Virus record (IMG/VR): IMGVR_UViG_3300048694_001134
Span: 1-64,000 of that record
Strand: one strand, 5' to 3'
Origin: a virus
Length of the DNA: 64,000 nt
Position 1 is the first letter of the stretch; each line of letters starts with the position of its first letter. The position numbers and the translations under genes are program-made. Of the stretch, positions 5,006 to 27,797 are shown one piece after another. A model generated the notes under the pieces. It saw only the letters and a program-made list of their open reading frames with translations, did not search any database and was not told the DNA's origin.

Positions 5006-5875
5006 ATGTCTTCATTTTTCAGTCATTTTCCAACAGTTCTTTACGGCAATAATGCAGTAACAAACATTATTGCTAAAGTTAAATTTCAAGAAAGTGTCCA
5101 AAAGAACCTTGCCGTCTTTTATTCTTATACGGTGAAGGAAGGTGAGCGACCAGATCAAATAGCAGAAAACTATTATGAGGATTCGTCATATGATTGGTTG
5201 ATTTATTTCAGTAATGACATTGTTGATCCATATTATGAATGGCCACGCTCGCAAGAGGAAATGGAAAGACTAATTGTTACAAAGTACGGGACAGTCGCAA
5301 ACGCTTCTCTTCAAAAGGCGTTTTATAGAACAAATTATCAGACGGATGACCGCGTAATTTCAACAGCAGCCTTCAACGCTTTACCAGCTGGCGCAAAGCA
5401 ATACTGGCAGCCAATTATAGGTTACAATGAAGCCATTCTCAATTATCAGCGCAAAGAACAAGATTTAATGGTGGAAACAAACGCGCTTGTTACCTTGACA
5501 GGCACTTTCAATGAGGTGCCTACTACCTCGTCCGTAGTCAAATATAAATTACAACAAGATCCACCTTCCGGTGCTGTAGTGGGAACAGTAGCGTTTGCAA
5601 ATACAACCACAGTAATATTAAAACACATCAACGGTGTGTGGAGTACGGGTAACTTCATGGTATATGCTGGTAACAACGCAAGTATAAATGCCACCATAAC
5701 AACTGCTAACGTCACAACGTGGTGTATACCACAGGATGAGTTGACGTATTGGTCGCCTGTTACATACTTTGAATACGAATATGAAATGAACGAGGCAAAA
5801 CGAAACATACAGCTTGTATCGTCCGTTTATGTAAACAAAATTGAACGTGACATGAAAGAATTGTTACAGCAATGA
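5006..5875 (+). CDS. gp53: Baseplate wedge protein gp53
   Basis: This is a 289-residue protein (T4 gp53 has about 196). The N-terminal half holds the family signature: 'YTVKEGERPDQIAENYYED', 'YDWLIYFSNDIVDPYYEWP' and 'SQEEMERLIVTKYG', matching the T4 gp53 motif around 'DPYYGW'. gp53 joins wedges to each other and to the hub. Residues from about 165 to 245 form an inserted strand-rich segment rich in Thr and Val that T4 lacks. The C-terminus ('YEMNEAKRNIQLV') corresponds to the T4 end. It overlaps the next gene by 4 bases (ATGA). Confidence 0.85.
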   Translation: MSSFFSHFPTVLYGNNAVTNIIAKVKFQESVQKNLAVFYSYTVKEGERPDQIAENYYEDSSYDWLIYFSNDIVDPYYEWPRSQEEMERLIVTKYGTVANASLQKAFYRTNYQTDDRVISTAAFNALPAGAKQYWQPIIGYNEAILNYQRKEQDLMVETNALVTLTGTFNEVPTTSSVVKYKLQQDPPSGAVVGTVAFANTTTVILKHINGVWSTGNFMVYAGNNASINATITTANVTTWCIPQDELTYWSPVTYFEYEYEMNEAKRNIQLVSSVYVNKIERDMKELLQQ

Positions 5876-7113
5876 AGAGAATTTTTGAACCAGGTGACGT
5901 AAACATTAAACGTCTCGAGCTCGTCAACAAAACGTTGAAAGCAAGTGTATCCCCTATGGATCAGGTCCAGGGGTTTGATATCTTTGAGGACATATCAAAG
6001 CCAACTCTTTACGCTGCAGTCTACTTCAATGACGCTATTGGTTTGCTTGATAACTTTCCAATTATTGGCGAGGAGCAAGTGTTCATTGAATTTGAAACAC
6101 CTGGTATGAGTACGACAACAACCTATAAGTTTCGCTCATTTGAAGTTTGCGACGTTAACAAGGGATTGAACGGTAAGGCAACTACGTTCACTCTTCGTTG
6201 TGTTAGTGAAGAACATCTGACAAACGGGTCGTCGCTCGTTACGCAGTCGTATCAGAACATTATATCGAATATTGTACCAGACGTATTGCAAAACTATCTT
6301 AAAAGCAAGAAACCAATAATTGTTGATGAAACAAAAGGCATTCAAACACTTGCCGTTCCTCGCCTGTCGCCATTACAATTCATTGATATGTGCCGTCAGC
6401 GTGCAGTAAGTAAAGACATGCCACTTTCGTTATACTTTTTCTTTGAAAACCAAAAGGGATTTAACTTCAAAACCCTTGAGGGGCTTGTGAAGGAGGGAAA
6501 GAAAAACATCGGCACTCGCATATTCAATGCACAGGATACAACAGCAGGCACAAAGGAAACAATCACAAACTCGTGGCGGACGATCCTCAATTTTCAAAAT
6601 ATTGTTAATATGGATTCTAACATGAAGGCGATGGATGGTGTTTTCAAGGGCGTGTCAAAAACGTTTGACGTGGCCACAAAGAAGTTTGAGGAAACGCCAT
6701 TTGACTTTCAAAAGGTTTTTAATAAACTTGAAAAGTTTAACAATACAGACCAGATACCTGGGACGGACGCATTCATTAAAGACTTTGGAAGCGGTGTCCC
6801 AAAAAACTTCGTATCTGCAAAAAACACACTAGTACCTGACACGTTGATCGATACTACGCTTGCTTTGAGGGGATCTGTTCTTGCTCTAATCAACTCAAAC
6901 GTAACAAGAGTAATGATTCATGGTGATTCGGGTCTGAAAGTAGGTGATATGGTTACTTTGGAGTTGCCAGCAGCATCGGGGCTTACGGGCAAAAGAAAAG
7001 AAGACAAAACGTTCAGCGGCAACTATCTGGTTACGCGTATAAGACACATGATAACGCCAAGCACAAAATCAAAACACCAAATAGTGTTTGATTGTGTTAC
7101 AATGGGAATGTAA
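5872..7113 (+). CDS. gp27: Baseplate hub protein gp27-like
   Basis: This 413-residue protein is close to T4 gp27 (391). The N-terminal part ('VQGFDIFEDISKPTLYAAVY', then 'FPIIGEEQVFIEFETP') has the tube-like beta character of hub domain 1. It is followed by 'TFTLRCVSEEHL' and 'LSPLQFIDMCRQRA', patterns seen in gpD/gp27-type hub proteins. The C-terminal 70 residues ('LKVGDMVTLELPA', 'GNYLVTRIRHMI') are the typical end of the family. In T4 a gp27 trimer carries the gp5 spike, and the gp5-like gene follows 1 base after the stop. The call rests on fold-type motifs and on the gp5 neighbour. Confidence 0.72.
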   Translation: MKRIFEPGDVNIKRLELVNKTLKASVSPMDQVQGFDIFEDISKPTLYAAVYFNDAIGLLDNFPIIGEEQVFIEFETPGMSTTTTYKFRSFEVCDVNKGLNGKATTFTLRCVSEEHLTNGSSLVTQSYQNIISNIVPDVLQNYLKSKKPIIVDETKGIQTLAVPRLSPLQFIDMCRQRAVSKDMPLSLYFFFENQKGFNFKTLEGLVKEGKKNIGTRIFNAQDTTAGTKETITNSWRTILNFQNIVNMDSNMKAMDGVFKGVSKTFDVATKKFEETPFDFQKVFNKLEKFNNTDQIPGTDAFIKDFGSGVPKNFVSAKNTLVPDTLIDTTLALRGSVLALINSNVTRVMIHGDSGLKVGDMVTLELPAASGLTGKRKEDKTFSGNYLVTRIRHMITPSTKSKHQIVFDCVTMGM

Positions 7114-8323: not shown

Positions 8324-10110
8324 TGGCCAACACAAGTATTGATCTAGTTGGTTTAGATTTTGCTGCAATCAAAAGCAATCTAAAAAACTTTCTAAAGACA
8401 AACACACAATTCAAAGACGTAGACTTTGATGGAGCAAACATCAACGTTTTGCTCGATTTACTTTCGTATAACACGTACCTAAATGGCTACTATACAAATA
8501 TGGTTGCCAGTGAAATGTTTTTGGATTCCGCACAGTTACGGGATAGCATTGTCTCTCATGCAAAGGAATTGAACTATCTCCCTCGCTCTTTTGTCTCTTC
8601 AAAAGCAAAAATAACTGTTGACATAACACCAGGAACCACCGTATCGTCCGTTGCCGTTCCAAAATTTACTTCCTTTACTACTCGGGTTGGATCATCCACA
8701 TACACATTCTCAACAGATGAAGCGGTAGTATTGACAACATCTAACAATGGTGTGTTCTCTCTTGATGTTGATGTGTATGAGGGTAGTGTTATAACAGACA
8801 CATTTGTTGTTGATGGTGCAAACACCAATCAGCGATTTGTATTATCTAATCAAACTGTTGACACATCAAAGATTGATTTGGTCGTATATGAGGATAGCGG
8901 ATCGACGCAACTTACATACACGCAATCGTATGGTTTGATTGGAGTCAAAAATTCCTCGCAAGTGTTTTTTGTACAAGCAGCAGAGAATTCACAATACGAA
9001 GTGTTGTTTGGTGATAACGTTTTTGGTAGAAGACCAAAAAATGGCTCCTACGTTGTTGCTCGATATAGAGCTACATCAGGAGAACTGCCAAACGGGGCGA
9101 CACGGTTTGTTGTCGATGGACCTATCGATGGACATGCAAACGTTAGTGTTAGTGTAATAACGGCGGCTACTGGTGGTTCAGTTGCGGAGACAGTCGACTC
9201 AATTAGATTCAACGCGCCAAGAAGTTTCCAAGCACAAGATCGTGCAGTTACGTCATCGGATTACGAAACATTACTGAAGTCACGATTTGCTGATATTCAA
9301 ACAATAAGTGTGTTTGGAGGTGAAGAAGCAGATCCGCCGCAGTTTGGTAAAGTGTTCATATCTGTTGACGTTGCTGACGCTGACGGGGCGCCGGAGACGC
9401 GTAAGCAGGCGTATCTCGACTACATTCGAACAAAGACGCCACTTACAATTAACGTTGGGTTTGTTGATCCAGACTTCATGTACGTACGTGTAAATTCTAC
9501 AGTACTGTACAACGTCAACAATACAATGAAGACGTACTTGGATATTAAGTCACTGATACAGGCAGGGATCAGTGGATACAATCTCACTTCACTTTCTGAC
9601 TTTAAATCAACACTGTTTATCAGCGAACTTAGTGATGCAATAAACAACGCCGATACAAGTATCGTGTCCAATGATACAAAAATTAAACTTGTTCGTCGTG
9701 TAGTAATACCAACAAACAAAGCAACAAACATTGTAACGACGTTTGATAACCAGTTACAGACGGAAACAGGTGTAAAGCTAAAGGCGGATGAAATACACTA
9801 CGGTCATACACTGACAAGTTCAATTTTTAACGTAAACGGTATACCGTGCTTATTGGTTGATGATTCTCTCGGTAACATTTATGTTGGAACGCAGGCGGCG
9901 CAAGCAGTTAGCGTTGTGAGACCGGTGGGAACAATTGACTACGAGACAGGCAAAGTCGTCATCAGTGCTTTAACAGTTGATAGCTATGCTGGCAACTATA
10001 TTGAATTGCGCGCGACACCAAGAACACAAAACGTATCAAGCAAAAAGAGTACAATTTTACTTATAGATGATTACGATGTCGACGTTAACGTTGTAGGTAT
10101 CAAGAGATGA
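8323..10110 (+). CDS. gp6: Baseplate wedge protein gp6 (J-like)
   Basis: This is a 595-residue protein (T4 gp6 has 660). The N-terminus 'LVGLDFAAIKSNLKNFLKTN' and the nearby 'DVDFDGANINVLLDLLSYNT' and 'LDSAQLRDSIVSHAKELNYL' are strongly conserved in gp6/gpJ proteins. They are followed by 'VLFGDNVFGRRPKNGSYVV' and 'AVTSSDYETLLKSRFADIQT' of the baseplate-J core. gp6 dimers form the inner baseplate ring and tie wedges together. It ends in ATGA overlap with gp7. Confidence 0.93.
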   Translation: MANTSIDLVGLDFAAIKSNLKNFLKTNTQFKDVDFDGANINVLLDLLSYNTYLNGYYTNMVASEMFLDSAQLRDSIVSHAKELNYLPRSFVSSKAKITVDITPGTTVSSVAVPKFTSFTTRVGSSTYTFSTDEAVVLTTSNNGVFSLDVDVYEGSVITDTFVVDGANTNQRFVLSNQTVDTSKIDLVVYEDSGSTQLTYTQSYGLIGVKNSSQVFFVQAAENSQYEVLFGDNVFGRRPKNGSYVVARYRATSGELPNGATRFVVDGPIDGHANVSVSVITAATGGSVAETVDSIRFNAPRSFQAQDRAVTSSDYETLLKSRFADIQTISVFGGEEADPPQFGKVFISVDVADADGAPETRKQAYLDYIRTKTPLTINVGFVDPDFMYVRVNSTVLYNVNNTMKTYLDIKSLIQAGISGYNLTSLSDFKSTLFISELSDAINNADTSIVSNDTKIKLVRRVVIPTNKATNIVTTFDNQLQTETGVKLKADEIHYGHTLTSSIFNVNGIPCLLVDDSLGNIYVGTQAAQAVSVVRPVGTIDYETGKVVISALTVDSYAGNYIELRATPRTQNVSSKKSTILLIDDYDVDVNVVGIKR

Positions 10111-14834: not shown

Positions 14835-17800
14835 ATGCCATTAGAAAAATCTTATAACATAAGTCCGTACTTTGACGATTTCAACCAGGCAAAAGACTTT
14901 TATAAAGTACTTTTTAAGCCTGGTGTTGCTGTTCAGACACGCGAACTTAACCAGCTTCAAACGCTGCTTCAAAGCCAGATCGAGCGGTTTGGGGACCACG
15001 TTTTTAAGTCTGGCACGATTGTCAGCGGTGTCAACTTTTCTTATATTCCTGTTTATAACTATGTGAAGATTCTTGACGTACAGGGTGATGGCCAACCGTC
15101 TGTGCCTCAAGCATATGTCGACTATTTTATCAAGAGCGGTCTTAACCTAACAGCGCGTATTGTTAACTATGAAGATGGTCTTGAGTCGCGCACGCCCGAC
15201 TTGAAGACGCTGTATCTACAATACATAAACAGCTCTGATCCCGACACTTCAAACGGTAATATCTCCTACACGCAGTTTGCACCTGGCGAAACGCTAACAA
15301 TCTTTAGCAAAAATAACGAAATCTTTAAGTACAACGTTCAGAGTGGTGGTCTTGGGTTTGCAAATGCTGACTCCCTTGTCATCATGAGCGCTATTGGTAT
15401 TTCTGGCAACTCAGGCGCTTTTAATGCTGGTGATACGATTACACAAGCCGGCGGTGCACGTGCGCAGATTCTCTACGTTAATACAACAATTGTTTCAAAC
15501 ACAGTCGTCTTGGGCGTTAAGCCGCTGCTTGATGATTTGACAAATACCGCTGTTACATCTACAGCGTGGACATTACAGAAAGGCGTCAACGTTGTCGATG
15601 CAAACACCTCTGCAACAGCAAACGTCGTGGCAATATACGGATCTGGTGCGCAGGGTTATTTAACAACGGATGCGTTGGGTATTGTGCAATCGATTGCGGT
15701 TGCGGACGGTGGTAGTGATTATACAATCCTTCCTCACGTGACCATCAAAACAGCAAACGCAGTTGCATCCTACTCAAACCCCTCTTTAAATGTAGTACCA
15801 CAAAACTATAAAACAACAATTACCGTTGGTAACAACTCAATCAATTCAGTTGGCACGGGTTATGCTTTTGGTGTTTCAGAGGGTGTTATCTACCAAAAGG
15901 GACACTTCCTCCGCGTTGATCCACAAATCATAGTTGTGGATAAGTTTACAACATCACCAAACAACGTATCTGTTGGTTTCAATACTGTTGAAACAGTAAT
16001 AACGGCAAGCAGTGATGATACGTTATATGACAACGCCTCAAACACGACAAACTTTGCAGCACCAGGTGCTGATCGTTTGCAGTTGGTTCCTAAACTTATT
16101 AAGAAAACAATCGATGAGGCTTCAGCAAACGCAGAGTTCTTCGTTCTTGCTGAATGGAAAGAAGGATTCCCTTATAAAGAAAATCGTTCGACGGTGTATT
16201 CAGGGCTAGCAGAAGAATTTGCTAGACGTACGCGTGAATCGGCTGGTGATTATGTCGGTGATATGTTCAGCGTTACAACGCGCGATAAGAATGTAGCAAA
16301 CAATAACTATATCAACGTTTTAATTGATCCGGGGTTTGCTTACATTAGTGGATACCGTGTATCAACATCATACAACAACTATCTCGATATCAAGCGCTCG
16401 CAGACGACCTCGAATTCAAGCAACCACAGTGTTACGGTCAACTATGGTAACTTCCTTTATGTGAAGGAACTAGCAGGCTTCTTTAAGTTCATAGCCGGCG
16501 ACACGGTTGAGCTTTACAATACGGCAAAGGGATACGTCACTGCCGGTACAATGACAACAAGCGGAAGCATTACTCCTCAAGGTACAAAGATTGGTACAGC
16601 TCGTATACGAAGCATTATGTACGACAGTGGTGTAATGGGTACGGCTTCTTGTGTGTATCGTTTGTATCTGTTTGATATCAACATCAGTGCTGGTTACACG
16701 TTCCGTAATGTGCGTTCTGTGTTCTATAACGGTACACCGGAAGATGGTATTTGTGACGCCGTTCTTGTGCAAGATCCTACGACAAGTACAAGCATTGCGG
16801 TACTACAAGACACAGCAAAAGATCAAATGCTGTTCCCTGTGGGTATCACGGGCGTTACTTCTATTGACAACGTCACCTACACATATAGAACAGCATCTAA
16901 TACGTCCCTGACATCGTCAGGTAATATGAGTATTGGTCCTCTTGGTGGTACTGCTGAACATCCATATACACACGGCGCAACGCTCTCTTCCGTAGAAGAG
17001 CGTGATCTGTTCCTTATTCCTCAGTCAAACAACCAAGCGGCAGCAAACCAAACAGGAACATTTACTGTCACGGCAGGTTCAGCGAACGTAACAGGTACAA
17101 CCGCTGGATGGACAGCTAATTTTGAACCTGGCGATTTTATTCGTCTAGGTAACACATCAACAGCAAACGACACGGCATCTGCACGTGTTGTTGGCCAGGT
17201 CAATGCTATTATTAACAGCACGGCTGTTTCGCTTGTCACAGCACCATCCAACTCCGTCACGGGCAATGCTGTACTTTTCTTCCCCGCACTCTATCCAATC
17301 AATCTTGGTCGTACGGGAAGAACAGCAACAAATTCCTCCGATGGAAAAACGCTTACCATTAACGTCAACGCGAGCCTGGCCAGTACAGTAAATGCTATTG
17401 CTATTCACAACGTACGACAAGCAAACGCAACGCCTGTGTCAAAAACAGTTAAGCGTAATTTGTATGTAAAGATTGATACAGCAACAAACGTTAACGGTGT
17501 TGAGGGCCCATGGTCGCTTGGTATACCTGGCGTGTTCCGTTTAAAAAATGTTTACAAAGCATCGAACTCTTCTGTAACTACATCAAGCACGGATGTGACA
17601 AAATACTTCTCCGTTGATGTTGGTGAAGAAGAAAATGCATCTCGCAACGCTCAATTAGTTCTTAATATTGGCGCACCGCTGACCATTACATCTGGCGACT
17701 TTCTGCTTGCCGAGGTTGATGCGTTTACAACGAACGGTAATGAGGGATTCTTTACATTTAACTCTTACACAGTTAATGCTACAGCAAACCTGACGCAACT

Positions 17801-19625
17801 ATCTGCAAACTCATCTGCCATTAACCTCCTTGAGTTGCCAGAGGTGTGCACAACAAAGGGCGTGTACTTTGATACACGTGATGTGATTGATTTCCGTCCA
17901 TTTGCTTCAAACACTGCTGCGCTTGCCAACACCGTTGGGTCAGCAACGGTGAATCCGGCAAACACGTTTGCTCTAAGTGGAGATAATCAGTTCTTCCCTG
18001 TTCCTGACTCTGTTGTCTCTTTCAATGTTCAATTTTATAACGGTAGAGTTGATAGAGTGGTTGCGCGGAAAGATGGTACGTTTGAGGTATTAGAGGGAGC
18101 GCCAGCTCCTACAAATCCCGTTGCCCCGCCGGAACAACGCGATTCAATGACGCTTTCTATTTTGAAGGTTCCTCCATACCCTTCAATTCCTTCTGCGTTG
18201 AATTCGTTTACAACAGAGTTTGCAGCCAAGCGAACATACAGTCCTAACGGTAGCGTAAACAAGCGCCTTAGCAATTTCCGCGTAACACAAGTACGTGCAC
18301 GCGATTCGCGTACATCACAACCACGTCGTTACTCAATGAAGGACATTGGCGCTCTTGATCGTCGCTTACAAGCTGTTGAATATCAAACTTCCTTGAACCA
18401 AGTTGAAGCAGCCGTAAAAGAGTTGACAATTCCAAGCGCAATTGCTCCAACGACAAATAGATTCAAAAACGGTTTCTTTGTTGATACATTTGATAATTAT
18501 ACAAAGGTTGATACAACACACAAAGAATACGCTGCGACAATTGATCAAGGCCGCGGTTTCTTGAAACCGCCAACAAGACAAGTGAACTTTGAGTCGCAGT
18601 TTGATCGCTCTCATGCAAATACAGCGGCTGGTATTGTTAATGGTGACACGTTGATGCTACCGTTCACATCAGTTGTTCTTGTTGATCAAAGCATTAAGAG
18701 TAGTGTTATCGGAACGACAGGCCAAAAGTTGCAGTTTGTCGGTGATGGTACAATTACTCCTTCTGCCTTTTCCATCCTTGCACGTGGTGAGGTCACACTT
18801 GTTGCAGACCCTTCGCCAGCCTCATATGATGGTGGTGGGTACTCAGACAACGGCGGCGGTGGTATGTCAGGGGAAGGTACTGCTGCTGACGGATCAAGTA
18901 GTGACGGTGGTGGCGGTGGCGGCGGTGGCGGCTGTTTCACAGCAGACACCTTAGTAACGTTGTTTGATAGAACACAGAAACGCATTGCTGATATTGTCGT
19001 GGGTGATCTTGTTCTTGATGCGTTTAGCAATACACCAAACAAGGTTATTGGTATCAAGACAACAGAGTACAAAGCTGGTCGTCAGTTGTTCACAACAAAT
19101 GATAAGTATGCACCATATATTACAGAGGAACATCCGTTCTTCGATAATGAAGGAAGTCTGTGCGCTATTTCTGACGTGTGTGAATATCAAGCACCATGGC
19201 TTGGTCCCGTCAAGATCGTTGAGGTTGCAAAAGTAGTTGACGTGGAAGCGCCTATTACGGTTTATAACCTAATGCTCGAAAACGGGTTCACTCACTATGC
19301 AAATGGTCAAAAGGTTCACAACATCGTCGGTAACGGCAATATGTTTATCCTGAATATGCGCGGTTGGCTGTCTGAGGAAGACTACAAAGGATACATTACG
19401 CTCCTGGAGGATGCGGGTGAACTTGATGCATGGCCAGCCTCGGCTAAGGCACGTATGTACAATATTACCGCAGCAATAAATACTTTTGTCTTGCGTAATG
19501 ATAACATACTTGGAAGAGTTGTTGGTAAGAGCGTTGCCTGCGCGGTCAAACACAGAGAAAAGTTACTCCCTGTGTTTGGTCTGTGGTTCCGTTCCGGTGT
19601 TCGTAAAATGATATTTGGAAAGTGA
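14835..19625 (+). CDS. DUF4815-type virion protein with C-terminal Hint domain
   Basis: This 1596-residue protein starts with the DUF4815-type block: 'YNISPYFDDFNQAKDFYKVL', 'FKPGVAVQTRELNQLQTLLQ' and 'IERFGDHVFKSGTIV'. A very long beta-rich body follows, ending near residue 1325. A Gly/Ser-rich linker with nine consecutive Gly (1358-1366) leads into a Hint domain (1367-1496). This domain has an N-terminal Cys (CFTADTLVTL), a block-B-like TEEHPFF and a terminal His-Asn at 1495-1496. The residue after Asn is Ile, not Cys, Ser or Thr. A further 100 residues follow, helical and basic at the end. The gene lies right after gp8, where wedge or fibre-attachment proteins sit. The N-terminal part is virion structure; the Hint part implies self-cleavage or ligation. 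Both roles are inferred. Confidence 0.85.
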   Translation: MPLEKSYNISPYFDDFNQAKDFYKVLFKPGVAVQTRELNQLQTLLQSQIERFGDHVFKSGTIVSGVNFSYIPVYNYVKILDVQGDGQPSVPQAYVDYFIKSGLNLTARIVNYEDGLESRTPDLKTLYLQYINSSDPDTSNGNISYTQFAPGETLTIFSKNNEIFKYNVQSGGLGFANADSLVIMSAIGISGNSGAFNAGDTITQAGGARAQILYVNTTIVSNTVVLGVKPLLDDLTNTAVTSTAWTLQKGVNVVDANTSATANVVAIYGSGAQGYLTTDALGIVQSIAVADGGSDYTILPHVTIKTANAVASYSNPSLNVVPQNYKTTITVGNNSINSVGTGYAFGVSEGVIYQKGHFLRVDPQIIVVDKFTTSPNNVSVGFNTVETVITASSDDTLYDNASNTTNFAAPGADRLQLVPKLIKKTIDEASANAEFFVLAEWKEGFPYKENRSTVYSGLAEEFARRTRESAGDYVGDMFSVTTRDKNVANNNYINVLIDPGFAYISGYRVSTSYNNYLDIKRSQTTSNSSNHSVTVNYGNFLYVKELAGFFKFIAGDTVELYNTAKGYVTAGTMTTSGSITPQGTKIGTARIRSIMYDSGVMGTASCVYRLYLFDINISAGYTFRNVRSVFYNGTPEDGICDAVLVQDPTTSTSIAVLQDTAKDQMLFPVGITGVTSIDNVTYTYRTASNTSLTSSGNMSIGPLGGTAEHPYTHGATLSSVEERDLFLIPQSNNQAAANQTGTFTVTAGSANVTGTTAGWTANFEPGDFIRLGNTSTANDTASARVVGQVNAIINSTAVSLVTAPSNSVTGNAVLFFPALYPINLGRTGRTATNSSDGKTLTINVNASLASTVNAIAIHNVRQANATPVSKTVKRNLYVKIDTATNVNGVEGPWSLGIPGVFRLKNVYKASNSSVTTSSTDVTKYFSVDVGEEENASRNAQLVLNIGAPLTITSGDFLLAEVDAFTTNGNEGFFTFNSYTVNATANLTQLSANSSAINLLELPEVCTTKGVYFDTRDVIDFRPFASNTAALANTVGSATVNPANTFALSGDNQFFPVPDSVVSFNVQFYNGRVDRVVARKDGTFEVLEGAPAPTNPVAPPEQRDSMTLSILKVPPYPSIPSALNSFTTEFAAKRTYSPNGSVNKRLSNFRVTQVRARDSRTSQPRRYSMKDIGALDRRLQAVEYQTSLNQVEAAVKELTIPSAIAPTTNRFKNGFFVDTFDNYTKVDTTHKEYAATIDQGRGFLKPPTRQVNFESQFDRSHANTAAGIVNGDTLMLPFTSVVLVDQSIKSSVIGTTGQKLQFVGDGTITPSAFSILARGEVTLVADPSPASYDGGGYSDNGGGGMSGEGTAADGSSSDGGGGGGGGGCFTADTLVTLFDRTQKRIADIVVGDLVLDAFSNTPNKVIGIKTTEYKAGRQLFTTNDKYAPYITEEHPFFDNEGSLCAISDVCEYQAPWLGPVKIVEVAKVVDVEAPITVYNLMLENGFTHYANGQKVHNIVGNGNMFILNMRGWLSEEDYKGYITLLEDAGELDAWPASAKARMYNITAAINTFVLRNDNILGRVVGKSVACAVKHREKLLPVFGLWFRSGVRKMIFGK
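18933..19322 (+). other. Hint (hedgehog/intein-like) domain
   Basis: These 130 codons run from Cys1367 to Asn1496 of the virion protein. Block A is CFTADTLVTLFD followed by 'KRIADIVVGDLVLD'. Block B is 'YITEEHPFF' (T-x-x-H). The end is 'VYNLMLENGFTHYANGQKVHN' trimmed at His-Asn. There is no homing endonuclease insert. The +1 residue is Ile, so ordinary intein splicing is not expected; bacterial intein-like or hedgehog-like cleavage is possible. Confidence 0.85.
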
Positions 19626-19626
19626 A

Positions 19627-20118
19627 ATGGTAATCAAATTTAGTTCGAACCATTTTTATTTACCAGTATCACCACTGATACGGCTATTCACATGGTCTCG
19701 CTACTCTCATTGTGAATTCGTGTTTTCCAATGGAGTATCGGTATTTCCAGCAATGGAAGTGGGGGTCGTCGTATCAACAAGAAAAAAATACCCAATAGAA
19801 ACTTTTGTTGAGGTTGACATTACACCGGCGGAAGAACGTATACTTTATCACTGGGCAAAGATGCAACTTGGTGTACCGTATGATTATACGGCGTTAGCAC
19901 CATTTAACGTTCTGATCCCACGGAAGAAAAAAAGTTGGAAAGATTCAACAGCGTGGATGTGTTCAGAATTTTGTGCTTTTGGTTTGGAAAAAATTGGTAT
20001 ACATCTTTTCGACGCCACCAAAAAGAAAATAACACCTGGTGAGCTGTTTAAGAAAATAATCATGCACCCCAAGGCTCGTGTGATCGAAAACACTTCTTCA
20101 TCATTAGTATCAGCTTAA
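19627..20118 (+). CDS. Permuted NlpC/P60 (YiiX/LRAT-like) cysteine hydrolase
   Basis: This is a 163-residue protein. The ATG at 19627 lies one base after the previous stop and is preferred to an upstream TTG. It has the circularly permuted order of the YiiX/LRAT-type NlpC/P60 fold: His first in 'FTWSRYSHCEFVF' (His28), then the catalytic Cys in 'AWMCSEFCAFGL' (Cys112). 'LGVPYDYTALAPF' between them matches the 'YDY' segment of the family. Members cut amide or ester bonds, often in cell-wall peptides. No signal peptide is seen, so it may travel with the virion. Since gp5 lacks lysozyme, this could be the tail-associated wall hydrolase; that role is inference. Confidence 0.75.
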   Translation: MVIKFSSNHFYLPVSPLIRLFTWSRYSHCEFVFSNGVSVFPAMEVGVVVSTRKKYPIETFVEVDITPAEERILYHWAKMQLGVPYDYTALAPFNVLIPRKKKSWKDSTAWMCSEFCAFGLEKIGIHLFDATKKKITPGELFKKIIMHPKARVIENTSSSLVSA

Positions 20119-20129
20119 AGAGAAAACAA

Positions 20130-20552
20130 ATGCCACAAAGAACCAACCCTCGGGTACAATTTATATCACGTGAACAGGTTTTTAGATTTGCTGTAAATGC
20201 TTTGCAGCCACTAACTATCCATAATTTTTATTTTGAACGCCAATTAGTTGATGCGTCAAAGCTAAAACCTGTTGGTGGCAAAATTGGTGATATTCTTAAA
20301 ACGGATGAAAACGGATACGTTGAGTTTGATTACTATTATGATTCGGGTCTTGCTGGTGGAGAGACTCCTCTAGAACAAGCACAAGCAGCAGCAAACGCTT
20401 TGGCAGGCGTTAAGGAAGTCATTCTTACGACGCTTGGGACAGCAACGTTACCAGACGATTACGAAACCTTAGCGTTATCATATTTTAGAAGTCATATTCG
20501 TGTCTCGGTATACATACCACCTGTAAGCGAATTTGAAGAAGTCGCTGGTTAA
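20130..20552 (+). CDS. Small unknown protein in baseplate/fibre cluster
   Basis: This 140-residue protein has a good ribosome-binding site (AGAGAAAA) 12 bases after the hydrolase gene. It has an N-terminal strand-rich part ('RVQFISREQVFRFAVNALQP', 'HNFYFERQLVDA'), then 'GGKIGDILKTDENGYVEFDY', a pattern typical of Ig-like or fibre-display domains in which a value is carried downstream. A helix with Ala/Gln repeats and an acidic C-terminus follow. I do not recognise a named family. Its position between the Hint protein and the 'AQTFF' protein suggests a virion role. Confidence 0.6.
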   Translation: MPQRTNPRVQFISREQVFRFAVNALQPLTIHNFYFERQLVDASKLKPVGGKIGDILKTDENGYVEFDYYYDSGLAGGETPLEQAQAAANALAGVKEVILTTLGTATLPDDYETLALSYFRSHIRVSVYIPPVSEFEEVAG

Positions 20553-20567
20553 ATAATAGGAAAACAA

Positions 20568-22598
20568 ATGGCAGGATTCGACTTAGCTCAAACATTTTTT
20601 CTTGATAAAGATGCTGTCCAGGGTGCTGATGTAGCTAGCATTACTGGTGTTGATCTTTACATATATGGTAAACCAGTCGCAGGAAAGACCAAGTCTGGTA
20701 TAGACAAACCTGGTATTTCTATCTTTCTTTGTGGATGCAACGAAGATGGCTCTCCTGATCTAACACTGTTCCATCACACATTCTCAGCACGAGTTGATTA
20801 CGATAACATTATTGCAGATACGGATGGCGGGGATGCAACGTCATTCATATTCAATCAGCCATTGCCAGCACCGACTGATCGCAAATACGCAATTATGATA
20901 AAGTTTGACGGTAGTGATCCAGATTTTAAAATTTGGTATAACAAAGCTGGTGAAAACATTCTTGGTACCACGCAGAAGACTTCTGTATCATCTGGTAAAG
21001 TAGACGGTTCATTGTTCACCATGACTAATGGCAAAAGTCTTACACCGGTCGTAGATGCCGATCTATCATTCCGCGTCAAAGTGGCAAAGCACACATCATT
21101 GTCAATGACTTTCCTAATAAAGAATCGTCCTTACGAGCTGATGGACGTGACGGATAAGGTTGGTATTTTCAAGGGTGGTGAAGACATTTACAAAGTATCA
21201 GCTAATGCAGCAGGTACTGTAAGCATCAACGCTGCTTCATTGTCTCTTATTGGTAACGGAACAAGCTTCTCCACTCTCAACGTCGGAGATGCGTTTGTTA
21301 TTACGGACGGTACAACGGATAACACGGAGGTGCGTGTTGTCACTTCAAGAGCAAATAACACACTACTAACAATCAACGAACAGCCATCGTTTACAAATGC
21401 TGTCGGTAAATATTACAAAACCGCCACAGCAAAAATGTTTTACAGTGATGGTGTCTCGGATAACATGGTTGTAAATGATTCAACATCAAACAGTACTGTG
21501 TACTTTGCAAGCAACGATGTAATCCGTGGTGTTGATTCTCTAGCAGAGGCAAAAATAACTTCTATTATTGATTATCAGCTAAACAGCGTTGTCCCTAACT
21601 TTACAATAAGAACACCTGGAGGCACAACAGCTGTCTCAACGTTAAATTTTGCAAACAATGGTGGTGTAATTGATGCAACGCGACAGGTTGACGCAACACT
21701 AGGTCAGCGTATGTTTGTTAATCAGTATGACGCTGTTATGCTTTCAGAAACAAATAGAGTGCTTGCGGGTAAATCAAATCCGTTTGCGGGAACACTGACA
21801 TTTACTACAAACAACCCCTTTGTTTCTCCTTATGTGAGAGAAGAAAACCTTGACTTGTTCGTCGAGCGTTATAGTATAAACAACATATCAACTAACGAAC
21901 ATAAGGGATCGGGTCTATCGCAGGCTCGTTATATAACCAAGCCCATCGACTTGGCTGATCAAGTATCAGAAGATATGAAGTTGTACATCCGTGGTTATAG
22001 ACCAGCAGGAACAACAATAGAAGCATATGCGCGCTTCCACAATAGCGAAGATCCGGAAAGTATTGATTTGAAAGACTGGACACAGCTTTCCTTTGCCGGC
22101 ACAGACGTTCCGTACAGTAGCCCTTCAAACATTTACGACTTTAAGGAGTTGCCGTTTGAGATGCCTCTTTATGGCTCAGGCACAGCAGCAACTGGTACAT
22201 TCACCGTATCTTCTGCATGTACCGTTATTACGGGAACGAGCGGTACAGTCAATACCGACATAGCCGTCGGATCGACGGTGCGTGTATACTCGTCAACATT
22301 TACAAACAACTATTTCGTTGATACGGTTGTTGCTTCAAACTCGACCACAATTACGGTTGCAACTGGCCCAGGATCAAACGCAAGCGTGTTGGGTAGTGGA
22401 TTTAAGATTGATGTTGTATCTCGTCCGCAAAGTGCCTTCCTCGATGTACAATCGGGTAATGTATTGACATACTTTAACAAAGCTGGAGCTATCTTTAGAG
22501 GCTATGACAAATTCACTGTCAAATTAGTTCTTCTATCAGAAGATGGTATTAGAATACCGTACGTCGATGATGTGCGTGCAATTGCGGTATCAGCATGA
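20568..22598 (+). CDS. Virion structural protein, possible detached C-part of DUF4815 protein
   Basis: This is a 676-residue protein. It begins 'GFDLAQTFFLDKDAVQGADV' and continues 'ITGVDLYIYGKP', then 'ISIFLCGCNEDGSPDLTLFH'. I recall this kind of block in long DUF4815 virion proteins of other phages, usually downstream of the N-terminal part in the same chain. Further on are 'SFRVKVAKHTSLSMTFLI' and a C-terminal 'SGNVLTYFNKAGAIFRGYDK' with 'KFTVKLVLLSEDGIRIPYVD', also typical ends of that family. Here it is a separate gene, separated from the N-terminal part by Hint, hydrolase and a small gene. It probably attaches fibres or finishes the wedge. It ends in ATGA overlap with the next gene. Confidence 0.7.
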   Translation: MAGFDLAQTFFLDKDAVQGADVASITGVDLYIYGKPVAGKTKSGIDKPGISIFLCGCNEDGSPDLTLFHHTFSARVDYDNIIADTDGGDATSFIFNQPLPAPTDRKYAIMIKFDGSDPDFKIWYNKAGENILGTTQKTSVSSGKVDGSLFTMTNGKSLTPVVDADLSFRVKVAKHTSLSMTFLIKNRPYELMDVTDKVGIFKGGEDIYKVSANAAGTVSINAASLSLIGNGTSFSTLNVGDAFVITDGTTDNTEVRVVTSRANNTLLTINEQPSFTNAVGKYYKTATAKMFYSDGVSDNMVVNDSTSNSTVYFASNDVIRGVDSLAEAKITSIIDYQLNSVVPNFTIRTPGGTTAVSTLNFANNGGVIDATRQVDATLGQRMFVNQYDAVMLSETNRVLAGKSNPFAGTLTFTTNNPFVSPYVREENLDLFVERYSINNISTNEHKGSGLSQARYITKPIDLADQVSEDMKLYIRGYRPAGTTIEAYARFHNSEDPESIDLKDWTQLSFAGTDVPYSSPSNIYDFKELPFEMPLYGSGTAATGTFTVSSACTVITGTSGTVNTDIAVGSTVRVYSSTFTNNYFVDTVVASNSTTITVATGPGSNASVLGSGFKIDVVSRPQSAFLDVQSGNVLTYFNKAGAIFRGYDKFTVKLVLLSEDGIRIPYVDDVRAIAVSA

Positions 22599-25907: not shown

Positions 25908-27797
25908 ATGGGAAGACCTCTTAGAGCGAAATATAGCGGTGCAGTCGCTATTGGGGTTCAGGAGATGTCGGATGCAGAGATTGCAGACATCATTCTTCCT
26001 AAGCTAGTCAACTATGCAGTAGCTAATCCGGACTCTGTTTATGGGTCAAAATTAAGAATCAATGGTGCTGGCGCCTATGATGTTAATCGTGGCACGTTCA
26101 CTGACTATCGCACGTCAAGTTATGGCGGCGCTCATCCAATTACGGTTGATCTTATCAACACGTACAACTTTACTCAGAATGAACGTGCACTAACTCCTTC
26201 CCTCTCAGCACGTCCTGTTCATTATATCCAAAACGGTAATGAACAGCAAGTTGTTGAGATGTCTAATTCAGACATTTACGATTACCTTCTTCCTACCATT
26301 ATCGATACAATGGCGTATCGTTACTGGCTCCTTGACAACATCTATACGCCATCAGGATTGTCATTTCCAGGTACATGGGTTAGTGTTGGAACTTTTGCAG
26401 ATACGTATTGGTCCTCAACGTCATTGATAACAGTCAACTACACGCTATGGCAACGAACAGATACGTTGTCAGTGGGCACGACATACAGACCTCTCAAACA
26501 AACAATTGTGAGTGGTGAATCTCGGCTCGTAGAAATGACGGATCTTGAGATAGAATCAATGTATGTGTGCATTGGCGAATCAATTCGTACAAAGGGGATA
26601 GGTCAATACTCATTTAGTACATCTGCGCCTGGTACTGGTACATGGACATCGGTAGGATCGGCTATTGACCGTTTGAATATAAATTACGATGTAAACTACA
26701 CAGGATCGTATGCAGGCACTTACGTTGGTAGTTACACGGGGATCTACGCTGGTACGTATCAAAGCACGTTTACCGGCCAATATGGTAACACCTTTACTGC
26801 GCTGTACACTGGTATCTACAACCTACTGACACCGTTCACTGGCGGATATGCAGGAACGTATCAGCAAGCATTTACAGGAGCATTCTCTGGATCGTACACC
26901 GGCGCGTTCAGTGGTTTGTACAATTCTTCATTCAGCGCTGCGTATCAAGGTACATACACGGGTGGATATGCAAACAGCTACACGGGCGCATACAGTGGTA
27001 ACTACATTATATACTTTACGGGAATATATGCAGGCACATACACTGGTCTGTTTAACCGTACAAGTTACACGGGCGCTTACACAAGCGTGTATAGACGCAC
27101 ATTTGGTGGTCGAGAAGAAAACTGGTATGCGTCAAGCTACGCTGGAGCGTATAACAGCTTTGCCCTGACATATATTGGTTATTTCACTGGTTCATTCAGA
27201 CGTACATATGGTAGTAATGAGCAGGGTTATTATTCACAAGCGTTTGTTGGAGCATACGGTCCAGGCGGCACTGTCAGCTATATCGGTTATTATGTTGGCT
27301 CGTTTAGACGCACATATGGTAGCAGTGAGCAAGGTTATTATTCGCAAGCGTTTGTTGGAACATACCGCGGTGTATCGAAATCTTGGACAGGTAATTATGC
27401 AGGTGGGTACACGACAGGATACTACACGGGCGTCTATAGTCAGGCTTGGACAGCTGTTTGGTCCGGAGCATATACACGAGTAGTTAATCAAACATTCACC
27501 TCTACGTACAGCGGCGCGTATAGTAAAGCATTCGTAGGATCTTACGCTCAATCATTTACCGGTGCTTTCACCGGGATATATACAGGAGCATATTCTTCAT
27601 TAGTACCATACACGGGAGCTTATAACAGAGTCTACAGTGGCGGGTTCACAGGCGCTTATACAAGTGCATACTCGGGAGCATACACGGGCGTATATACGCG
27701 GGCGTGGACCGGAACGTATACAGGAGTTTACACAGGCCTCACTGCACAAAACACGCTGCAGACAATGACAAAGAGCTTGTACGTTCGTACAGCTTAA
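25908..27797 (+). CDS. Tetrapeptide-repeat fibre protein 1
   Basis: This 629-residue protein has two parts. Residues about 1-260 hold three related modules, each starting near 'EMSDAEIADIILP', 'EMSNSDIYDYLLP' or 'EMTDLEIESMYVC' and containing 'GTWVSVG' and 'LWQRTDTL' pieces. Residues about 263-613 are an aromatic-x-Gly-x tetrapeptide ladder ('GSYAGTYVGSYTGIYAGTY'), interrupted by two copies of a 36-residue unit containing 'SFRRTYG' and 'QGYYSQAFVG'. The last 15 residues leave the ladder. The protein is probably an elongated tail fibre. I know no function for the ladder. The same plan is used in the next gene, so they are paralogues. Confidence 0.8.
   Translation: MGRPLRAKYSGAVAIGVQEMSDAEIADIILPKLVNYAVANPDSVYGSKLRINGAGAYDVNRGTFTDYRTSSYGGAHPITVDLINTYNFTQNERALTPSLSARPVHYIQNGNEQQVVEMSNSDIYDYLLPTIIDTMAYRYWLLDNIYTPSGLSFPGTWVSVGTFADTYWSSTSLITVNYTLWQRTDTLSVGTTYRPLKQTIVSGESRLVEMTDLEIESMYVCIGESIRTKGIGQYSFSTSAPGTGTWTSVGSAIDRLNINYDVNYTGSYAGTYVGSYTGIYAGTYQSTFTGQYGNTFTALYTGIYNLLTPFTGGYAGTYQQAFTGAFSGSYTGAFSGLYNSSFSAAYQGTYTGGYANSYTGAYSGNYIIYFTGIYAGTYTGLFNRTSYTGAYTSVYRRTFGGREENWYASSYAGAYNSFALTYIGYFTGSFRRTYGSNEQGYYSQAFVGAYGPGGTVSYIGYYVGSFRRTYGSSEQGYYSQAFVGTYRGVSKSWTGNYAGGYTTGYYTGVYSQAWTAVWSGAYTRVVNQTFTSTYSGAYSKAFVGSYAQSFTGAFTGIYTGAYSSLVPYTGAYNRVYSGGFTGAYTSAYSGAYTGVYTRAWTGTYTGVYTGLTAQNTLQTMTKSLYVRTA
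26695..27750 (+). repeat. Coding tetrapeptide repeat region (fibre 1)
   Basis: In-frame 12-base units encode [Tyr/Phe/Trp]-[Thr/Ala/Ser]-Gly-x. Synonymous codons vary (GGC, GGT, GGA; TAC, TAT), so selection has kept the peptide pattern while the DNA diverged. Confidence 0.8.

Follow-up and report, generated by a model that had tools for sequence, protein, structure and literature searches.

The window, by which we mean the whole 64,000-nucleotide stretch of viral DNA analysed, carries on its + strand an ORF of 1596 codons (14835..19625). As delineated by the ORF, Pfam and phrog_358, its product consists of the N-terminal half of a DUF4815/VrlC protein followed by a Gly-rich linker, a Hint domain and a tail. 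Genes gp6 and gp8 are located upstream, and the window also contains those for sheath, tube, portal, terminase and scaffold; judged from its sequence, the genome of this uncultured virus is T4-like. Pfam finds DUF4815 at E 7.9e-49, and residues 637-1310 match phrog_358 at E 7e-179, over the N-terminal part of that 2056-position family. In tblastn for VrlC homologues (1271 phage records), residues 1-1310 (14835..18764, +) formed a conserved virion part homologous to VrlC of cyano-, pelagi- and alphaproteobacterial T4-like phages; over this part locus L002 is 83% identical, with a dN/dS of ~0.05 at saturated dS. Marine T4-like phages have a two-layered baseplate, of which VrlC is considered an integral component (PMC7029224). 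In cyanophages VrlC is a single long protein; in the window and in one clade of uncultured relatives three genes take its place, for the N-terminal half, a small middle domain and the C-terminal half, and the latter two lie here at 20130..20552 (+, by synteny) and 20568..22598 (+, by synteny and by phrog_358 positions 1703-2054, E 5e-29). With its DUF4815 domain and the adjoining gp6 and gp8 baseplate genes, the 1596-aa host protein is identified as the N-terminal half of the VrlC/DUF4815 baseplate protein.

Downstream of the conserved part, a Gly/Ser/Asp-rich linker (18840..18932, +) ends in GGGGGGGGG, its poly-Gly stretch running to Gly1366, directly before Cys1367. The Hint domain (residues 1367-1496; 18933..19322, +), delimited by profile, phmmer and AlphaFold/Foldseek, begins with this Cys1, whose codon (18933..18935, +) would encode the thioester nucleophile, and contains block B ITEEHPF with the T..H pair, block F VYNLMLENG and block G KVHN. 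The latter ends with His1495-Asn1496; Asn1496 (codon 19320..19322, +) is the predicted C-terminal cleavage residue by sequence and family alignment, and the Ile1497 codon is next. A 100-aa tail (19323..19622, +), delimited by comparison with L002, by relatives whose Hint lacks His-Asn (HN-less) and by the model, starts IVGNG and had no match in Pfam.

When cultured phages were searched by BLAST with the window Hint, no convincing match emerged, and a profile survey was therefore chosen. With the window sequence left out of its construction, a Hint profile scored the domain at 58.4 bits (E 6.2e-17), and still at 53.2 bits when the HN-less relatives were also removed; with the same profile the best other of 1050 six-frame segments in the window reached 4.8 bits, and the maximum among 20,000 shuffles was 10.3 bits versus 58. 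Pfam sees the domain only below its curated cut-offs (Hint PF01079, E 6.6e-4; Vint PF14623, E 0.004), so ordinary annotation would overlook it. Single-sequence phmmer against the PDB found BIL2 of Tetrahymena BUBL1 (5e-5). AlphaFold, given a 35-row alignment, modelled the Hint confidently (most block means 80-98, lower at residues 81-100) and the tail as helical with low to moderate confidence. Foldseek of this model against the PDB placed BIL2 (6y75/6tmm) first at E ~1e-9, followed by Vint, inteins and the Clostridium thermocellum BIL, and the nearest solved sequence to the family profile was the C. thermocellum BIL domain 2lwy (E 5e-22). With fold and block A, B, F and G motifs recovered by profile, AlphaFold, Foldseek and alignment, residues 1367-1496 are, on homology and modelling, a real Hint domain with a complete catalytic set. 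The sequence-only reading had placed a Hint domain at the end of a 1596-residue baseplate-region protein and named a fold comparison as a check. The profile score (E 6e-17), the confident fold and shuffles at no more than 10.3 bits uphold the domain, the comparison returned a Hint fold with BIL2 as top PDB match, and DUF4815/VrlC with gp6/gp8 adjoining bears out the setting. The features it had listed, namely poly-Gly, Cys1, a TEEH block B, a terminal His-Asn and then Ile in place of a splicing nucleophile, are all read in ORF 14835-19625.

A family scan seeded by the Hint from the middle of the long VrlC of L064 yielded 55 viral loci with a Hint. Inside VrlC there is one Hint each in L050, L055, L059 and L064, and four in tandem in L087. 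N-terminal Hints are found on tail proteins, in L113 with Phage-tail_3 and in L127 and relatives with flanks that by eye are lambda J-like, and others lie in Gly-rich proteins (L102). Viral Hint flanks are Gly-rich on both the N and C sides, and related Hints sit in Gly/Pro-rich virion-protein linkers. Phages thus carry, as far as sequence comparison can tell, a family of Hint modules in flexible virion-protein linkers, of which the window domain is one member. Among 60 distinct domains, counting only positions that are present, Cys1 is found in 53/53, the block B Thr/Ser and His each in 51/52, and the block G His in 51/53. We found no studies of phage virion Hints in open-licence PMC papers and, judged on these, the family is apparently unstudied. 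BFVD Hint proteins of uncultured Caudovirales and gene 28 of Achromobacter phage JWF are structural matches with a Hint in phage tail-region proteins; their names come from database annotation, and no functional work on them was found in open-licence PMC papers. The JWF gene, annotated as tail-fibre related (L171, a cultured phage; ORF 5077-6528), has an HN-less Hint, CFPAGT...SEEH, at its C-terminus. The VlrC of Stenotrophomonas phage DLP6 (L004:13011-13472, GGGGGGC...SHN) looks Hint-like by eye, but it gave 4.7 bits and E 0.002 in a one-sequence search, is without the block B His, and was not counted. Tandem arrays were seen at L087:9956-11866 (the four Hints of a 3022-aa VrlC), in L190 (several in a 1926-aa ORF) and in L202, from an archaeal Thermoplasmata MAG (about nine in one 1917-aa ORF).

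The residue following His-Asn (+1) sets the viral domains apart. Inteins need Cys, Ser or Thr at this position. The scan that yielded the 55 loci used VHNKGGGG as one search pattern, so that its +1 Lys rate is biased; the counts given here come from an N-part-only query without the C-terminal block, which leaves the junction out of the search. In 23 viral Hints with His-Asn, +1 was Lys in 18, Ala in 2, and Gly, Asp and Val in one each, while in 29 bacterial and archaeal Hints it was Ser in 13, Thr in 8, Cys and Lys in 3 each, and Gly and Ala in one each. Cys, Ser or Thr therefore occurs in 0/23 viral versus 24/29 bacterial plus archaeal Hints (Fisher p 3e-10, a descriptive value, the copies being related). 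The residue before the DPLAQTF domain is Lys in 3/3 proteins where a Hint abuts it, and in 0/27 Hint-less sequences, which argues that the +1 Lys belongs to, and travels with, the Hint module. A module-borne Lys predicts a chemical role for this residue; BIL2 of the BUBL1 polyubiquitin locus (6y75, 6tmm), the best PDB match by sequence and fold, is reported to join the neighbour on its N-terminal side to the epsilon-amine of a lysine (PMC8616854), and by analogy we infer that the phage +1 Lys may act like the BIL2 lysine acceptor. BUBL1 BIL2 differs in being eukaryotic with ubiquitin-like flanks. In the window and L002, unlike the usual family member, +1 is Ile; this variant has swapped Lys for Ile and fused a tail.

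What stands at the end of the N-terminal VrlC half varies among relatives. Nothing was recognised in L012 and L013, and L009 has only a Gly-rich end; L007 has a CFI-box domain (weak, E 0.002), L010, L011, L014, L016, L017, L039 and L061 have a VICT domain, L089 has two Hints plus a VICT domain, L008 and L015 have a Hint without His-Asn plus a tail, and the window and L002 have a Hint with His-Asn plus a tail. This C-terminal module is, on such comparisons, swappable and dispensable. The survey of the gene in related phages that had been suggested came out both ways: a Hint is present in L002, L008, L015 and L089, but many close relatives lack one. The domain is therefore not essential to baseplate assembly in general, nor is processing needed in general. 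VICT is an unnamed C-terminal domain ([KV]IICT.L..LG.L ... PWA..MA..MGV) on various phage virion-region proteins, often after a Gly linker or Hint, and without a Pfam match above cut-off; copies lie at L010:13985-14512, L016:13988-14491, L039:13979-14506 and L092:1903-2262, and in L172 (SynMITS9220M01_028) and L173 (HMO-2011 gene 49). Homology of the window tail to the VICT/KIICT tail of Hint-less relatives, plausible by eye, was not supported (hhalign probability ~1%), the VICT profile also giving no match. Directly after the Hint gene begins a possible permuted papain-like gene of YaeF/NlpC-P60 type (19627..20118, +; SHCEF and MCSEF motifs; NCBIfam PRK11479, E 0.0037, below cut-off), with four matches, all window or L002 copies. 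A general association of this NlpC-like neighbour with Hint or VICT modules was not found, the pairing occurring only in the window and L002.

From these residues and by analogy with studied Hint domains, the window Hint probably cuts or relinks its host protein after translation. We moderately favour an A-type BIL-like module with predicted cleavage at both Gly1366-Cys1367 and Asn1496. The A-type BILs (C. thermocellum, PDB 2lwy) likewise have Cys1, block B T..H, a terminal His-Asn and no +1 Cys, Ser or Thr, and reside in variable host proteins; in the window, Cys1, T..H and KVHN (the latter also in an L002 piece) are joined by Ile1497 at +1. Known BILs have been reviewed as bacterial, whereas this one belongs to the baseplate protein of a tailed phage, where poly-Gly precedes it and a conserved helical tail follows. 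Reviews describe BILs as having no +1 nucleophile, as mostly cleaving and as capable of weak splicing (PMC7664689, PMC4031507); for the A-type, cleavage dominates and weak splicing is proposed to proceed via the freed amine (PMC4031507). The expectation of the sequence-only reading, that cleavage and not normal splicing is the outcome for such domains, agrees with this literature. Under the A-type BIL reading, the swappable C-terminal linker of a VrlC/DUF4815 baseplate protein would have acquired an A-type BIL Hint module. The Hint, whose fold is predicted, would fold within the nascent protein, and Cys1367, aided by the block B Thr and His, would take the Gly1366 carbonyl onto its thiol, as conserved residues and family chemistry suggest. 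Because +1 is not Cys, Ser or Thr, most of the thioester would be lost to hydrolysis or to another nucleophile, and what remains would be a virion protein of 1366 residues with a Gly run at its end. Asn1496 would cyclise and free the 100-aa tail from the Hint, and in a minor ligation the freed alpha-amine of Ile1497 might attack the thioester, as proposed for A-type BILs. A single chain would thus be made and then separated after folding or assembly; the tail might work in cis while still attached or in trans once cut off. For this reading we counted the profile score, the BIL nearest matches, the near-invariant catalytic residues, purifying selection and the lack of viral +1 Cys, Ser or Thr; against it, the long unplaced branch, a +1 other than Lys, the L002 frame break, dS near saturation and the Hint-less relatives, which do without processing.

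If the domain were instead an intein-like passenger, it would splice out, joining Gly1366 to Ile1497, and be neutral to the host protein. In Hint-less L010, L016 and L039 the Gly linker is directly joined to the C-terminal domain, so excision would recreate the same layout, and the family is patchy with tandem copies. Nevertheless, the tail differs from the domain in these three (hhalign probability ~1%), a homing endonuclease domain is absent, and there is no +1 nucleophile, a lack that normally makes cleavage dominate (PMC4031507). As a class 1 intein the domain fails at Ile1497 and also by location, its position being a swappable C-terminus and not a conserved site of an essential protein. 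Phage inteins of UvsX, terminase and helicase have a related core (~55-62% identity over ~46 aa between one Hint of the family and T4-like phage proteins of UvsX type), but their hosts are enzymes acting on nucleic acids, where they splice, with a nucleophile, at conserved sites, whereas the window Hint lies in a dispensable virion linker. We consider a passenger very improbable.

Selection and phylogeny bear on whether the domain works at all, and on how much of its chemistry is used. Between the window and L002, dN/dS is 0.14 and 0.075 in two parts of the Hint, with dS near saturation, and ~0.09 (0.089) in the tail, which is 70% identical; by this comparison Hint, catalytic residues and tail are under purifying selection. 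L002, the only close relative with an HN-Ile Hint, has a one-frame break inside the Hint near 9471 (real or an assembly error); evidence for an unbroken HN-Ile form therefore comes from a single contig and two in-frame pieces. At L064:4709-4790, a 26-base tandem duplication breaks the frame inside that Hint (again real or an assembly error). These breaks, the loss of the usual +1 Lys and the long branch are what a catalytically dead structural leftover might show; such a leftover is highly unlikely, given that every catalytic residue is kept at near-invariant positions and that both Hint and tail are under purifying selection. In the tree, the HN-less Hints of L008, L015, L193, L195, L225 and L230 form one clade (100/99) and end GT[TPN]S. 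No branch is longer than that of the window Hint (2.31 changes per column), and because of this length its placement is uncertain: grouping with the HN-less clade was neither supported nor rejected (p-AU 0.49).

This grouping matters for a hedgehog-like alternative with N-terminal chemistry only, in which the Gly1366-Cys1367 thioester would be hydrolysed or attacked by a nucleophile, with Hint and tail remaining a single unit, the tail guiding folding or the nucleophile and His-Asn being an unused or slow remnant. The likely closest sisters, the six HN-less loci, keep Cys1 and the block B His (with Thr in most) and have in common with the window a PW[LI]-type motif and the tail start I[IV]xxG (I[IV]GNG in the window and L002); the cultured phage JWF also has an HN-less Hint. 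Hedgehog (Hog) domains have the same fold (1at0, E 1.6e-3) and a C-terminal region after the Hint, but Hog is without His-Asn and has a sterol-binding region, to which Pfam showed no homology in the window tail, itself modelled with low to moderate confidence. Against a hedgehog-like mode, KVHN is kept at the exact position in the window and L002 despite great divergence elsewhere, and we regard it as unlikely, though the least so of the alternatives. The tail appears to be more than a by-product, since relatives that have lost His-Asn from their Hint conserve its beginning.

BIL domains have few clear biological roles so far. If the window domain is active, an autoprocessing step in the contractile-tail baseplate would proceed via BIL chemistry. 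A further and quite doubtful proposal is that phage virion Hints are ligation devices, the Cys1 thioester attaching a Gly-ended virion protein to an amine. For the majority of the family the acceptor would be the +1 Lys of the module itself, giving an amide or isopeptide bond. The HN-Ile and HN-less forms would instead use a nucleophile, such as an amine, that is offered by the host surface or by an adjacent subunit of the baseplate and selected by the conserved tail. Were this true, an autoprocessing domain would provide a covalent, ATP-free cross-link or anchor in the virion. Elsewhere in the tail region, L002:16258-18159, the homologue of window 25908-27797, encodes a protein consisting mostly of short YTG[AS]Y-type repeats.
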